Of a stretch of DNA of 64,000 nucleotides, positions 3,039 through 20,891 are shown piece by piece. The stretch's first letter is position 1; every line of letters begins with the position of its first letter. The position numbers and the translations under genes are program-made. The notes below the pieces were generated by a model. That model was not told where the DNA came from, did not search any database, and was given only the letters and a program-made list of their open reading frames with translations. Source of the DNA: Spirulinaceae cyanobacterium SM2_1_0 (GTDB taxonomy: Bacteria; Cyanobacteriota; Cyanobacteriia; Cyanobacteriales; Spirulinaceae); contig JAAUTY010000014.1 of the NCBI GenBank assembly GCA_012031265.1, positions 1 through 64,000 on the forward strand. Reading direction: 5' to 3'.

Positions 3039-3145
3039 TCTGCCTCGCAAACATTCTAGGGTGATGTCTGCACATCCCCTTGCTTGGTTAATCTACCGCA
3101 GATTTTGTTGTCTGTGGCGGTGGCTGAGATGGCTAGTACTGCTAC

Positions 3146-15351: not shown

Positions 15352-16388
15352 ATGGCTTTACACGCAGACCTGCACCGACACCTCGGCGGCTCCGTTGTGC
15401 CGCGCGTCCTCTGGCGCTACTTTCATCGGCATGAACCGCTCTCGCCGCGCGCTTCCCGGACTACGACGAGTTTGAAGATTTCTACACGCGGCCGCGCAAC
15501 ACGCTGGACGAATACCTCGAGCTCCATACCCTCGTCGAGCACGTCCAGACCGAAACCGCGCTCCCCTACTTCATCTATCGCCTCATGCGCGGCGCTTACA
15601 TTTTTGAGAATCTGGCGTATCTCGAATTGCGCTACACACCCTATCTGCGCACCCCTGATCACCTCGAGCAAGCTGAGCGCATTGAAGCGATGCACACGAT
15701 TGTCGAAGTCGTGGGCAAGGCAGCGCAGCTCGGGGACTGCCCGATCGTCACCAGCCAGATCCTCTGTATGCACTCGCGGCTCCCCTCCGCAGTCAATCAG
15801 GCGATTGTGGAGGTGGCGGCGGCACATCCGGAGTATGTCTGCGCGGTCGATGTCGCGGGTGGCGATGTGCATTATCGCGATCGCCTAGACGAATTTGCCC
15901 GCTTGTACGAACTGGCGCGATCGCACGGTCTCAAAACCACCGGTCACTTGTACGAAACCACCGACGGCTGCTACCCGGAGCTACTGCCGTATCTGATGCG
16001 GATCGGTCACGGCATCCAGATCCCGCTGCGCTACCCGGAGCTGTTGCCAGCCGTAGCGGCACGCCGACAGTGCCTAGAGGTTTGCCCGACAACATATCTG
16101 AAAACGGGAACCCTCGATGACCTACGCGAACTGAAGGTGGTCTTCGACCGCTGCTTCGAGGCTGGTGTCGATATCGCCATCTGCACCGATAATGCCGGTC
16201 TGCACAATGTCCGCCTGCCCTTTGAATACGAAAATCTGCTCACCTACGACATCATCGACTTCCGCCAACTGCAAGCCTGCCAAGAAGCGGCGTTCCGCCA
16301 TGCCTTCGCTTGGCCCCATGACCAGCGCCCAGAATCCCTGCTGACCGATATTCTGCAACCGGAGGCGTCGTCGGCACTATCGGTTTAG
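15352..16388 (+). pseudogene. add: Adenosine deaminase-like protein, interrupted by a one-base deletion
   Basis: A metal-dependent hydrolase of the adenosine deaminase family. The first frame starts MALHADLHRHLGGS, with the metal-binding HxH motif, and reads to YFHRHEPLSPRA. The continuation FPDYDEFEDFYTRPRNTLDEY and all later sequence lies in a different frame. Visible there are ELRYTPYL, VDVAGGDVH, GHGIQIPLRYPELL, CLEVCPTTYL and ICTDNAGLHN (metal Asp). Restoring one base near 15452-15455 (TT to TTT) joins the halves into a protein of about 345 residues. HGIQIP and the short CPTTYL stand where classical enzymes have related motifs, so the substrate may be adenosine or a related nucleoside. 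Divergent from purA. Confidence 0.83.
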
Positions 16389-16696: not shown

Positions 16697-17463
16697 ATGA
16701 CCCAGACGCCAGATCGCGACAGACTGACGCCACTGTTGAAGCTAAATCACGTAAGCCTCAGCGATGCCTTGGGTCTCGAAACCATCCTCCATAACATCTC
16801 GTTCACGGTCACAGCGGGCGAGTTTGTTGCTGTAGTCGGGGCATCTGGAGCCGGGAAGACCTCGCTGCTGCGTTTGCTCAATGCCCTCAGTAGTCCGACG
16901 ACTGGCGAGATTGAATTCGCTGGGTGCAAGCTGGAGAGGCTGCCCGTCTTGACCCTGCGGCAACAGGTGGTGCTCGTGCCCCAGGAGCCAAAATTGCTCG
17001 GCATGACGGTGGCCAATGCTCTGGCTTATCCGCTGCGCTTGCAGAAGTTGCCCAAAGCTGAATGCCAAACGCGGCTGGCGTGCTGGTGCGATCGCTCGGG
17101 ATCCCCGACCTTTGGCTGGAGCGCGGCGAGCTAGAGCTTTCGGTCGGGCAGCGACAACTGGTGGCGATCGCCCGTGCCCTCGTCATGCAGCCGCGCCTGC
17201 TCCTACTCGATGAGCCAACCTCGGCTCTGGATGTTGGGACGGCGGAGCGTATGTTGAATGCGCTCACGCAAAGCGTCCGCACGGAGGGTTTAACTGTGTT
17301 GATGGTAAATCATCAACTCGAGCTGGCGGCGGTGGGCGATCGCGCCCTCTTCCTTGCCGACGGCAAGCTGCGCCACGACCAACCCCAAGCGCAAATCGAC
17401 TGGCAAGCGTGGCGAGCCGAACTCTTGACGACGGCTCAAACCGAGACTGACGCCTGGGAATAA
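16697..17463 (+). pseudogene. ABC transporter ATP-binding protein, interrupted by a one-base deletion
   Basis: A single-domain ABC ATPase. The first frame holds the Walker A motif GASGAGKTS and the Q-loop region (VVLVPQEPKLLGMTV). The frame is lost near 17078-17081, where GGCGTG would need to be GGCGGTG. The second frame continues VLVRSLGIPDLWLERGE with the signature LSVGQRQ, Walker B LLLLDEPTSALD and the switch histidine MVNHQLE. Joined, it is about 255 residues. Its short ATPase type resembles YbbL/FetA-like exporters, but no permease gene is adjacent, so the substrate is unknown. Confidence 0.8.
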
Positions 17464-17483
17464 CCTCGGCGAAGCGGCTGACT

Positions 17484-18176
17484 TTAGTGACGCGCGGTTC
17501 GTAGCCGCTGGCGACGGCGACGTTCCCAGATCAGCGGCAGTTTGCGGATGCGCCGTTTGAATTGTTGCCATTCTTCCGGGCTGAGCGCGATCTGTTGCCA
17601 GGTCGGCCGCGACAGCAATCGCATTGACCAATGGTGCAATTTTGGGTAATCCTCGAGCGCAATACTGAGATCCGGAACGCGACAGACGAGCGTACCCGCA
17701 ACGATCTCCGCGAGGGTCAATTGCTCACCGGCAAAATAGGGTGCGTTGCTCAACAAGTTTTCTAAAAAATGTAAGCTCTTGGTGACTCGCAACCGCGCAT
17801 ATTCTAAATCTGCTGATGGCTCAGAAGTGCTGTCCGCCTGCATCAATACTTTGACAGCAGCAGGGAGTAGTTCATTGAGCACGATCAATTGTACCATCCG
17901 CACTTTTGCGAGGGTGGCTGGCTCTGTCGGAAGCAACGGCGGCTGGGGATATCGGGCTTCGAGATAGTCCAGGATCGCCAGTGACTCAATGACCCGCAAG
18001 TCACCATCTACCAATACGGGAATGCGGCTAAACGGATTCAGGGCGAGAAAGTCAGGTTCAAATTGTTCGCCGCCCAAATTGACCGGCATCAGTTCAAACG
18101 GCAGTTGTTTTTCGAGTAGGGCGAGCCAGACGGGACGAGCATAGAGAGAGGGACGGGCGTAGTAGAGTTTGAGCAT
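17484..18176 (-). CDS. Glutathione S-transferase, probably TetR-regulated
   Basis: A GST of 230 residues. The thioredoxin-like domain shows MLKLYYARPSLYARPVWLALLEK, a SRIPVLVDGD cis-proline loop and VIESLAILDYLEARYP. The helical domain shows FAGEQLTLAEIVAGTLVCRVPDL. A basic tail (RRRQRLRTARH) ends it. The start ATG lies 23 bp from a perfect 22-bp palindrome (18199-18220), and a TetR-family gene ends just beyond that palindrome on the same strand. I infer that the TetR protein represses this gene and that the enzyme detoxifies the inducing compound; the compound is not identifiable. Confidence 0.88.
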   Translation of the reverse strand: MLKLYYARPSLYARPVWLALLEKQLPFELMPVNLGGEQFEPDFLALNPFSRIPVLVDGDLRVIESLAILDYLEARYPQPPLLPTEPATLAKVRMVQLIVLNELLPAAVKVLMQADSTSEPSADLEYARLRVTKSLHFLENLLSNAPYFAGEQLTLAEIVAGTLVCRVPDLSIALEDYPKLHHWSMRLLSRPTWQQIALSPEEWQQFKRRIRKLPLIWERRRRQRLRTARH

Positions 18177-18198
18177 AGTTTTAGGGTGGTTTTGGGGA

Positions 18199-18220
18199 AG
18201 ACAGACCGATCGGTCTGTCT
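18199..18220. promoter_or_regulatory. Perfect 22-bp palindrome, probable TetR operator
   Basis: Half-site AGACAGACCGA is followed directly by its exact reverse complement. It lies in the 58-bp gap between the TetR gene stop and the GST start. The inner 16 bases match the second palindrome at 18844-18859 in 14 positions (GAGACCGATCGGTCTC there, CAGACCGATCGGTCTG here). Position and symmetry fit a TetR dimer site controlling the GST gene. Confidence 0.8.
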
Positions 18221-18234
18221 AAGAACAAAAAAAA

Positions 18235-18834
18235 TTAGCGCGGGACGGTGAGGTGATGGCTGAGATAAACTCGAAGCTGGGCGATCGCCCGTTGTAAATA
18301 AGCGGGATCGTCGTACAACTTGCTGAGCATGACCGCGCCCTCGAGGGTGGCGATCGCCATCGTGACCACCGCCTCAGTATCCGTTGTGGCCGGGAGTTCG
18401 CCGCGCGCAATGCCTTTGGCGAGGATGCGATGGAGGAATTGTCGCCAAGTATCCATCGCCTGCCGGGCGCGATCGCGCAGTACCGGCTGCGTATCATCAC
18501 TTTCGCTCGCCGTGTTGAGGATCGGGCAGCCGCCTTGAATCAGCGGTTCGTGCCAGATTTGCTCGTGAACGCTGAGCACCGCCATGAAGCGATCAAGAGC
18601 ATGGCGCTTGCCCCGCAAAGCACGGACGGATTGTTGCTGGAGGTACTGAACCAAATGGTCAAAGGCGGCGATCGCCAACTCCTCCTTGCTGCGAAAGTGA
18701 TTGTAGAGACCGCCTTTCTGCAAACCCGTGGCGCGCATCAGATCGGACATCGATGTCCCGGCATAGCCCTGTTGATTGAACAACCGGGCGGCTTGTTCGA
18801 TGATGCTGGCTTTGGTGGCAGGTGCAGACGGCAT
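18235..18834 (-). CDS. TetR/AcrR family transcriptional regulator
   Basis: A dimeric repressor of about 199 residues. The N-terminal helix-turn-helix is clear: SIIEQAARLFNQQGYAGTSM followed by SDLMRATGLQKGGLYNHFRSKEEL (residues about 10-55). The C-terminal ligand-binding part includes IQGGCPILNTASESDD, typical of regulators close to cyanobacterial and proteobacterial stress-type TetR proteins. I take the ATG at 18834 because conserved sequence begins just after it; the frame opens to 18906. A palindrome sits 8-25 bp upstream of this start, suggesting autorepression, and a longer match lies before the downstream GST gene. Confidence 0.9.
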   Translation of the reverse strand: MPSAPATKASIIEQAARLFNQQGYAGTSMSDLMRATGLQKGGLYNHFRSKEELAIAAFDHLVQYLQQQSVRALRGKRHALDRFMAVLSVHEQIWHEPLIQGGCPILNTASESDDTQPVLRDRARQAMDTWRQFLHRILAKGIARGELPATTDTEAVVTMAIATLEGAVMLSKLYDDPAYLQRAIAQLRVYLSHHLTVPR

Positions 18835-18841
18835 TGGCTCA

Positions 18842-18861
18842 GAGAGACCGATCGGTCTCCC
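18842..18861. promoter_or_regulatory. Second TetR-type palindrome, upstream of the tetR start
   Basis: GAGACCGATCGGTCTC is a perfect 16-bp inverted repeat with partly matching flanks (AGA/TCC). It shares its central 14 bases with the 22-bp palindrome before the GST gene. Such paired sites are the usual signature of a TetR protein that controls itself and a target. Confidence 0.75.
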
Positions 18862-18902
18862 TAAGTTTAGCAGCCAACGCCGACCAATGCTCAGGGCACC
18901 GC

Positions 18903-20891
18903 TCAAGAATTGCTGGTGCTGGACGGCGCAGCAGCAGAAGCAAGTGCGACTTGGCGGGCGATCGGCAGCGCGATCGCCACCGTCGTACCACAGTTTTTGC
19001 CCGCGCTCGTCAGTTGGATATGCCCGTGCATCAGCTCGATCAGGTTACGGGCGATCGCCAACCCCAAGCCAACACCGCCGTATTGGCGCGTGTGACTGCC
19101 ATCAACCACCGCGAAGGGTTTGAAGAGTTTTGCTTGCAGCTCCGGTTCGATGCCGATGCCGGTATCCCGGATCGTGATGATTGCTTGTTGCCCACTAGCA
19201 GCCTCAGCCGAGGCCGTGACTTCAGCCATCAGGGTGATGCCGCCGACCGCCGTGAATTTAATCGCATTGTCAAGCACGATGCCCAAAACGCGCTGCAACT
19301 GATCGGGATCAGCATAGACCCAAACCTCAGCGTCAGGCTGAGTCCATTCCAGGCTCAGCTCTTTGGCAGCGATCGCCGCTTCATGGGTGGCGATCACCGC
19401 CCGTAAGCAATCCCCTAGATTCACGGACTCAATGCCGACCTTGAGTTGGCCGGCTCGCAGCTTGGTGATGTCAGAAATGTCGGTAATGATTTCGTAAAGT
19501 TGCAGCGCCGACTGCTGAGCCTGGTGAATATAAGTCAATTCTTCAGCGCGCGAATCGCAGAGATCATCTTGGATAATGCTGAGCGAACCCAAGATGCCAT
19601 TCAGGGGCGTCCGCAGCTCATGCGAAGTAATGGTCAAAAACTCATCCTTGAGTTGGTTAGCGATTCGGGCGTCCTGCCAAGCGTGTTCGAGTTCCTCCGT
19701 CCAAGTTCGCAGCCGCTGAAGCATCGTTTCTAGCGCCGACCCAAGCTGGCTGAACTCGCGAATGCGAAAATCATGGGGGATTGTTTTACTGGCGTAGGGA
19801 TTGTCCTGGTTCAGGGCATAGTCGCGTAGTTGCTCCAGCGGTCGTGCCGTCTCGCGGGAGATGAAGAAAATGGCGGCGGTAGTCGCGGCGATCAGGGTCA
19901 GGGTCAAGGCGACCAGCAGCCCGATCAGGACACGCCGGATGGCTTCTAGGTCGGCGAGAGCATCATCGAGGTTGGCGATCGCCAACACCGCCCAGCGCTG
20001 ACCGACCTCAGCGGTGAGCGGACTGTTGATAGAGGTATACCCTGCTAACAACTCCCGGCCGTCTTCATCAAAGGAAAAGAGATGGAGGAAATCTTTGTGA
20101 CCAGCCAGGGCATTGCGGAGCAGACTCTGCAAGCGGCGAGCGTCCGCTTCTTGGGCAATATTGCGCCCGATCCGTTCAGGGAAGGGGTGTGCTAGGATCG
20201 TGCCCGCTTCATCGATGATGACGGGATAACCCGCGAGCGAACTGGGTCGCAGTTGGGCGCGATCGCGGATAACGGCATGAGCTTGCAGAACATAGCGCAG
20301 TTCACCGCTATCGGCGTAGACCGGGGCACTCAAAACAAAATCCAAGCGGCTACCGCCGTCCAGAGCACGCTCCTCAGCCGCGGCCATCACCGCAGCCGTT
20401 GCGGCATCCAGCTCGGGCAACAAGACTTGCACCCGCACCTCAGACTGTTGCAGGGGAGCGTCAGGAGCGATTGACGGCCAAGAAGCAGCATCCACATTCA
20501 GGGATAACGGCTCGTCACAGGTGCTCGCCAGGGGCTGAAAATCATCGAGCGATCGCAACTGCAAACAGTCCACTGGGTAAGGCAACTGCAACTGCAACTG
20601 CCGCAGCCGTTCAGCATCGATCGGGGTACGGGTGGGAGTCAACCAGCGACTCGTGCTGAGGGCAGCTAGATTGGCGCGGAGCAGGGTAATCGTCGCGGTC
20701 AGCGCACCACCCTTCCGCACAGCGCTTTCGGTGAGATTCTGGCGGGCCGTTTCCAGGAGCGCCGAGCGTGCCTTGCGATAGGTGACGTGCGAGGTGATGT
20801 ACACGCCCAACAGCAAAACCGGCACACTCAACAGCAGCAGGCGCGAGAGCAAAATGCGACGGAACGAAACTTGCGAACCCGGCTGAGCCAT
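18903..20891 (-). CDS. Membrane sensor histidine kinase with extracytoplasmic sensor domain
   Basis: A two-component sensor of about 662 residues. Order of parts: membrane helix (about 12-33, ILLSRLLLLSVPVLLLG), a large periplasmic region of about 285 residues with Cache-like features (FVLSAPVYADSGELRYVLQA, SSLAGYPVIIDEAGTILAHP), a second helix (about 321-346), a HAMP-type linker, the HisKA helix with phospho-acceptor His424 (SHELRTPLNG) and the ATPase domain (LDNAIKF N-box, DTGIGI, YGGVGLGLAIA). No receiver domain or partner regulator is adjacent. An upstream extension to 21050 is open but not kinase-like; 20891 and 20969 are alternative ATGs. The signal is unknown. Confidence 0.9.
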   Translation of the reverse strand: MAQPGSQVSFRRILLSRLLLLSVPVLLLGVYITSHVTYRKARSALLETARQNLTESAVRKGGALTATITLLRANLAALSTSRWLTPTRTPIDAERLRQLQLQLPYPVDCLQLRSLDDFQPLASTCDEPLSLNVDAASWPSIAPDAPLQQSEVRVQVLLPELDAATAAVMAAAEERALDGGSRLDFVLSAPVYADSGELRYVLQAHAVIRDRAQLRPSSLAGYPVIIDEAGTILAHPFPERIGRNIAQEADARRLQSLLRNALAGHKDFLHLFSFDEDGRELLAGYTSINSPLTAEVGQRWAVLAIANLDDALADLEAIRRVLIGLLVALTLTLIAATTAAIFFISRETARPLEQLRDYALNQDNPYASKTIPHDFRIREFSQLGSALETMLQRLRTWTEELEHAWQDARIANQLKDEFLTITSHELRTPLNGILGSLSIIQDDLCDSRAEELTYIHQAQQSALQLYEIITDISDITKLRAGQLKVGIESVNLGDCLRAVIATHEAAIAAKELSLEWTQPDAEVWVYADPDQLQRVLGIVLDNAIKFTAVGGITLMAEVTASAEAASGQQAIITIRDTGIGIEPELQAKLFKPFAVVDGSHTRQYGGVGLGLAIARNLIELMHGHIQLTSAGKNCGTTVAIALPIARQVALASAAAPSSTSNS

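Follow-up and report, generated by a model that had tools for sequence, protein, structure and literature searches.

A predicted autoregulated TetR–GST circuit with paired palindromic operators in a Spirulinaceae cyanobacterium

In Spirulinaceae cyanobacterium SM2_1_0, a GST gene lies directly behind a tetR gene on the same (minus) strand, and each of the two genes has in front of it a palindrome that seems to be an operator of the TetR protein. We give a probability of about 0.83 to the reading that this TetR is autoregulated, represses both its own gene and GST, and comes off the DNA on exposure to an electrophile or oxidant, perhaps via Cys103. Very probably this is a genuine circuit for stress response, of a kind already well known, and not a chance pattern. 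The operator logic is well supported at the level of sequence; binding, repression and the nature of the signal are inferred. The window analysed is a stretch of 64,000 nucleotides (contig JAAUTY010000014.1, positions 1 to 64,000), and the host genome comprises 5,028,328 bases (5.03 Mb) in 149 contigs.

In the simplest reading, a single TetR dimer species would bind two copies of AGACC-N4-GGTCT and repress both promoters sterically. The copy at tetR would cover the likely transcription start, just after a TGnTAnnnT -10-like element, and TetR bound at its own promoter would limit its own synthesis by negative feedback. Bound to the other copy, which follows the tetR stop codon and precedes the GST start codon, TetR would repress GST. 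An electrophile or oxidant would alter TetR and take it off the DNA, tetR and GST would be expressed, and GST would then conjugate or reduce the compound with glutathione.

The locus and its predicted operators

The original prediction placed a 22-bp palindrome before GST and a 16-bp palindrome before tetR, and both prove perfect on direct reading (Table 1). It also gave their centres 14 identical bases, and the same core, AGACCGATCGGTCT, is indeed found in both. Widened to 22 bp (18841-18862), the tetR palindrome matches at 20 of 22 positions. The operator centre lies 33 nt upstream of the start codon at GST and 17 nt upstream at tetR. With one palindrome before the regulator's own gene and one before the adjacent target, the locus has the layout of an autoregulated circuit, judging from sequence and conservation. 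The host has TGCTAAACT in the -10-like position of the putative tetR promoter and a poor -35; a generic sigma-70 scan of 17400-19100 recognised no promoter.

Table 1. Features of the tetR–GST locus, with positions in the window.
Feature	Position	Strand	Description
GST gene	17484-18176	-	230 aa; start codon at 18176; candidate repressor target
GST operator (predicted)	18199-18220		AGACAGACCGATCGGTCTGTCT, perfect 22-bp palindrome; core AGACCGATCGGTCT at 18203-18216
T8G tract	18226-18234	-	downstream of the tetR stop codon, ahead of the GST operator
tetR gene	18235-18834	-	199 aa; ATG at 18834; candidate autorepressor
tetR operator (predicted)	18844-18859		GAGACCGATCGGTCTC, perfect 16-bp palindrome; core AGACCGATCGGTCT at 18845-18858
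Extended -10-like element of the putative tetR promoter	18864-18872	-	TGCTAAACT, directly upstream of the tetR operator

The GST protein matches the Pfam families GST_N_3 (5.8e-18) and GST_C (3.7e-11), which place it in the GST superfamily, and by sequence its nearest solved relatives are maleylacetoacetate isomerase / zeta GST. An assignment as MaiA was rejected at 97.8 bits, below the equivalog cut-off of 171.05. To call the protein a detoxification enzyme, as the original prediction did, is a family-level reading of its GST domains. The roles reported for such proteins, in photo-oxidative stress and with methylglyoxal, fit a role against electrophiles or oxidants. One cyanobacterial GST is said to take part in methylglyoxal handling (PMC7407080). 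Activity of cyanobacterial GSTs in photo-oxidative stress is reported in the available portion of PMC6700277, a text from which the term TetR is absent.

Two neighbouring plus-strand genes of the window are also of note. An ABC transporter ATPase at 16697-17463 lies in two frames (16697-17134 and 17062-17463), as either a sequencing-error frameshift or a pseudogene. Adjoining it at 15352-16388 is an adenosine-deaminase-like gene, apparently in two frames as well: a stretch resembling its N-terminus runs from 15352, and the rest is in a frame open at 15435-16388.

The TetR protein and its signal

The TetR protein matches Pfam TetR_N (1.3e-16) and TetR_C_13 (3.9e-33), both over the cut-off. Its fold model has ten helices with a mean pLDDT of 84.2, weak at residues 99-101, and the TetR_N HTH domain together with the predicted all-helical C-terminal domain makes it a member of the TetR/AcrR family. 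The closest solved structure is Caur_2221 of Chloroflexus aurantiacus (PDB 3qbm; E 1e-53, TM 0.91), and the next closest is a Cytophaga TetR (PDB 3eup; E 5.5e-30, TM 0.86). Both share with the host protein a GGCP(I/L)LNT stretch including its Cys. The sole cysteine of the host TetR is Cys103 (codon 18526-18528). Among the best 80 of 231 homologues, this cysteine is present in 80/80 and Lys172 in 79/80.

One of the nearest known systems is NemR of E. coli, also of the TetR family. Just upstream of the nemR start lies AGACCGACTGGTCT, the same motif as AGACCGATCGGTCT here and a putative NemR site. Cys106 and Lys175 of NemR align with Cys103 and Lys172 of the host TetR, a pair that is not specific to NemR-like proteins. 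The NemR structure 4yze comes at Foldseek rank 11, with a TM of 0.79 to the host TetR model, and the two proteins are 25% identical over 143 residues. NemR was best matched by this TetR in 5 of the 6 genomes tested and by another TetR in G029. The two systems differ in their targets, since nemRA-gloA encodes N-ethylmaleimide reductase and glyoxalase I whereas the host tetR is followed by GST. They also differ in two cysteines: Cys21 and Cys116 of NemR are absent in the host TetR, which has F19 and D113 there, and F and D stand at these positions in 80/80 homologues. The host TetR resembles NemR in anatomy and is at most a possible orthologue of it.

In the part of PMC5297802 that was available, NemR is described as regulating genes against electrophiles, with Cys21 and Cys116 implicated in the electrophile response; the response to reactive chlorine is said to depend critically on Cys106, with a Cys106-Lys175 sulfenamide. 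The Cys106-Lys175 bond was unseen in a NemR-based sensor, according to an excerpt of PMC8748444. A second system of this kind is AltR of Pantoea ananatis, which acts in allicin tolerance. According to the sections of PMC13178969 at hand, AltR is a TetR that represses its own promoter via an inverted repeat, with further predicted boxes in its cluster; its response to thiosulfinates needs one conserved cysteine, and it is unresponsive to N-ethylmaleimide or diamide. It differs from the host TetR in its repeat, CAATCTAC-N6-GTAGATTG, and in its target genes (same sections of PMC13178969). By analogy with NemR and AltR, the host TetR might sense through Cys103, to which we give somewhat less than even odds.

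About as likely is the same circuit with another kind of signal, a non-covalent ligand (phenolic, lactone or acyl-CoA-type) held in the TetR pocket, with Cys103 in a purely structural role. The TetR C-terminal domain also matches the LmrA/YxaF-type model TetR_C_13_2, and it matches the ScbR-type autoregulator model at 98.9 bits, below the equivalog cut-off of 150. Both the LmrA/YxaF-type and the ScbR-type families include ligand-binding members. LmrA/YxaF (QdoR) of B. subtilis is flavonoid-responsive, and the YxaF structure 1sgm scores 42.7 bits. Of 25 paralogous TetR proteins, 22 likewise have a cysteine at the Cys103 column and 9 have both Cys and Lys (some of the alignments being weak). Since a cysteine is common at that column, Cys103 is no marker that singles out redox sensors. 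The thioesterase and the SDR enzyme found behind the operator in relatives would suit a metabolic ligand. The retention of Cys in all 80 homologues and of Lys in 79 points the other way, as do the genes of GST and tautomerase type at these loci and a motif like that at nemR, but none of these is decisive.

Sites in relatives and on plasmids

Relatives of the TetR protein were collected by a search of named genomes, which gave 231 confirmed relatives; the best 80 of 231 were kept, and all of these are cyanobacterial records. Of these best 80 loci, 58 have AGACC-N4-GGTCT with no more than one mismatch within 120 nt upstream of tetR, against 0.4 of 80 in shuffles of the same 120-nt stretches. The site is exact in 22 loci and has one mismatch in 36, two in 14, and three or more in 8, which leaves 22/80 tetR genes with two or more mismatches in that stretch. 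Five of the 80 have no site at up to three mismatches in the 120 nt; L058 and L062 have one about 200 nt upstream. A site at tetR is joined by another site within 4 kb downstream in 54/80 loci, and any site lies 200-4000 nt away on the upstream side in 5/80 (a few loci end earlier).

A GST homologue, aligned from its start, lies downstream in 41/80 loci. In 27 of these 41, with GST starts derived from BLAST, a site with no more than one mismatch lies less than or equal to 130 nt from GST. The remaining 14 of 41 have no such site, several of them in apparent operons behind another operator. Where GST is the next gene after tetR, a second site with at most one mismatch stands before GST in 17/17 loci.

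Control genes were taken from 59 genomes, the host's own and 58 relatives. A tetR orthologue (at least 49% identity) is present in 7 other genomes of this set, and 7/7 have a site with at most one mismatch. Each of the 21 distant TetR genes scored has two or more mismatches; this number leaves out one fetched locus below the BLAST limit (L130) and TetR matches whose locus was not fetched. GST homologues (E up to 1e-40) give 41 matches in 34/59 genomes. Thirty of the 41 matches, the host's own GST among them, were fetched and scored; the 11 left out include one from G031, a GST lying about 3.8 kb downstream of tetR. The fetched GST homologues adjoining tetR (G029, G054, G046) have at most one mismatch in 3/3 cases, the GST about 590 nt behind tetR in G057 has no nearby site, and those away from tetR have three or more mismatches in 25/25. 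Five weak GST matches (28-32% identity) stand outside the count of 25, each with three or more mismatches.

In a phylum-wide draw of 292 genomes, a tetR orthologue is present in 18, the host's own included. In the other 17 orthologue genomes, the site has no more than one mismatch in 14 cases and two mismatches in 3, in a draw that partly overlaps the earlier sets (at least three already among the 80 loci, four genomes already in the 59-genome set). The locus L183 (G029) carries the same DNA as L011 (Gloeocapsopsis crepidinum). No tetR orthologue was found in the 12 same-family genomes (G001-G012; two about 80% complete), so the pair is patchy, and it may have been horizontally acquired in the host.

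These comparisons bear out the central claim of the original prediction as far as sequence can, namely that an autoregulated TetR would control a GST: the sites are position-conserved at orthologous tetR and GST genes and are missing at the examined off-locus homologues. TetR might instead regulate itself only, with the GST site a relic or used by another regulator, and the variable presence of GST behind tetR (those 41 loci) would fit this. That reading is improbable, given a site at every one of the 17 neighbouring GST genes against none of the 25 non-neighbouring ones examined.

Sites with no more than one mismatch number 139 across the 80 loci (799,764 bases), where the density in the host genome would predict about 15. 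Sorted by gene, with one representative per cluster defining each gene family, 60 of the 139 are at tetR, 29 at GST, 26 at a 4HBT_2 thioesterase, 6 at an SDR enzyme, 3 at a PanB-like gene and 3 at a second GST-like gene; three are single cases at other genes, and nine have no looked-for gene start nearby. A Tautomerase_2 gene follows tetR in 20 loci with no intervening site. The PanB-like (ketopantoate hydroxymethyltransferase) gene behind the TetR operator, in L028, L032 and L039, is odd for a detoxification regulon. By sequence, the host locus would be the compact form, with GST as the sole remaining target, of a regulon that is larger elsewhere.

Plasmid homologues were found in 1263 matched records, of which five were scanned. 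On a Priestia megaterium plasmid (L170), which encodes a TetR 42% identical, there is an exact pair of AGACC-N4-GGTCT sites (2421-2434 and 3119-3132), one before tetR and one between tetR and the gene for an SCP2 sterol-binding protein, whose start lies about 380 nt further. Another Priestia plasmid has one site with one mismatch, before tetR. A Stenotrophomonas rhizophila plasmid (L169; TetR 36% identical) has a single one-mismatch site at 3083-3096, which lies behind tetR and is followed by a DJ-1/PfpI family gene. The site was absent on the scanned Nostoc and Acetobacter plasmids, one of each. On the Nostoc plasmid, a conjugative one (L168), a GST gene and a distant TetR gene point away from each other, with a different repeated palindrome containing GGTAC between them (2726-2995); this is perhaps an independent TetR-GST circuit.

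A wider reading is possible and is held tentatively. The host pair would be a compact version, with two genes, of an as yet undescribed electrophile/oxidant regulon of cyanobacteria, built from TetR, a NemR-type operator and a thiol switch of Cys103 (with Lys172). Elsewhere this regulon would drive GST, 4HBT thioesterase, tautomerase, SDR and second GST-like genes, most units standing behind their own operator and many having a phased T-tract. The operator code and the thiol switch would either predate the phyla that carry them or have moved between phyla (Priestia/Bacillota plasmids, E. coli NemR), with the targets exchanged.

The surroundings of the sites suggest two promoter designs for one repressor, a T-tract at targets and TGnTAnnnT at tetR. 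Among the 59 tetR promoters with a site, host included, 34 have TGnTAnnnT at -14 to -6 before the operator and 42 have TAnnnT at that position; TTG lies at -35 or -34 from the operator in 22 and 20 of 59. From these positions, the tetR operator would cover the expected transcription start. Of 77 downstream sites (L008-L087), 51 have TTTTTT starting at -16 from the operator, the host's tract included. The phased T-tract, which ends in G, occupies the stretch 10 to 17 bases before the operators of downstream genes and may be either a promoter element or the end of the tetR transcript.

The palindromes might also act as RNA hairpins, in a terminator or leader, and not as protein-binding DNA. Both fold well (-16.1 and -19.5 kcal/mol, z -5.59 and -5.03), but any palindrome folds so, no T-run follows either palindrome in the window, and a terminator scan (17400-19100) came back empty. 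Changes in the arms also speak for DNA over RNA structure, because they are mostly one-sided and break pairing, as in half-sites read by a protein. The 39 distinct tetR sites show 32 broken, 11 wobble and 0 two-sided paired changes, and the 100 distinct downstream sites show 97 one-sided broken, 31 wobble, 5 two-sided paired and 3 two-sided broken, in a tally whose sites were picked by consensus likeness, which under-samples two-sided changes. An RNA role is very unlikely.

Rarity in the host genome and meaning

The 14-base core AGACCGATCGGTCT occurs at 2 places in the whole host genome, both at the tetR–GST locus. It occurs nowhere with one mismatch and at 21 places with two; its backward-read control has 26 places at up to two mismatches. 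A genome scan for the 10-base core ACCGATCGGT, proposed with the original prediction, finds 5 places against 7 for the backward control, two at the tetR–GST palindromes and three within long reading frames (L001 974-1804; L002 577-1539; L005 104-1132). The prediction had seen a danger in a palindrome frequent irrespective of promoters, and that danger has passed, with AGACCGATCGGTCT standing only at these two genes. From these counts, the motif is not a by-product of HIP1 spread across promoters. CGATCG, which the core includes, does belong to the GCGATCGC element (HIP1) that is abundant in cyanobacteria, but a chance or HIP1-derived origin is ruled out by the genome counts and by conservation of the site also where its central four bases are AATC, ATTC, GTTC or others in place of GATC.

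AGACC-N4-GGTCT is exact at 4 places in the host genome, and the two beyond the locus are inside ORFs; with one mismatch allowed there are 93 places, fewer than the 185 of the backward control. No third exact intergenic site was found in the host genome (of the 93 places, the four exact ones were inspected), and weaker or diverged further targets may exist there. The circuit had been called self-contained: this stands for exact intergenic sites in the host genome, and it does not hold for relatives, in which the same operator serves a larger regulon.

Two autoregulated TetR-family regulators are described in Synechocystis PCC 6803, PfsR and PrqR, and in this the proposed host TetR is like them. 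PrqR is tied to oxidative stress; PfsR differs in acting in iron homeostasis, and a GST target is unmentioned for either in the accessible part of PMC4092027. A 2026 review of cyanobacterial redox regulation, as far as its accessible text goes, considers the characterised redox regulators likely a mere fraction and lists PrqR and PfsR among candidates without a mechanism (PMC13421787); the word NemR is absent from its text. Among the papers listed in a literature search that covered neither subscription papers nor preprints, none was about this cyanobacterial TetR–GST regulon.

The proposed regulon, which has a defined operator, a single cysteine and targets of GST type, can be tested directly. 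The operator pair could serve as an inducible switch in cyanobacteria. If true, the regulon would link the glutathione-dependent defence of photosynthetic bacteria with one particular sensor.
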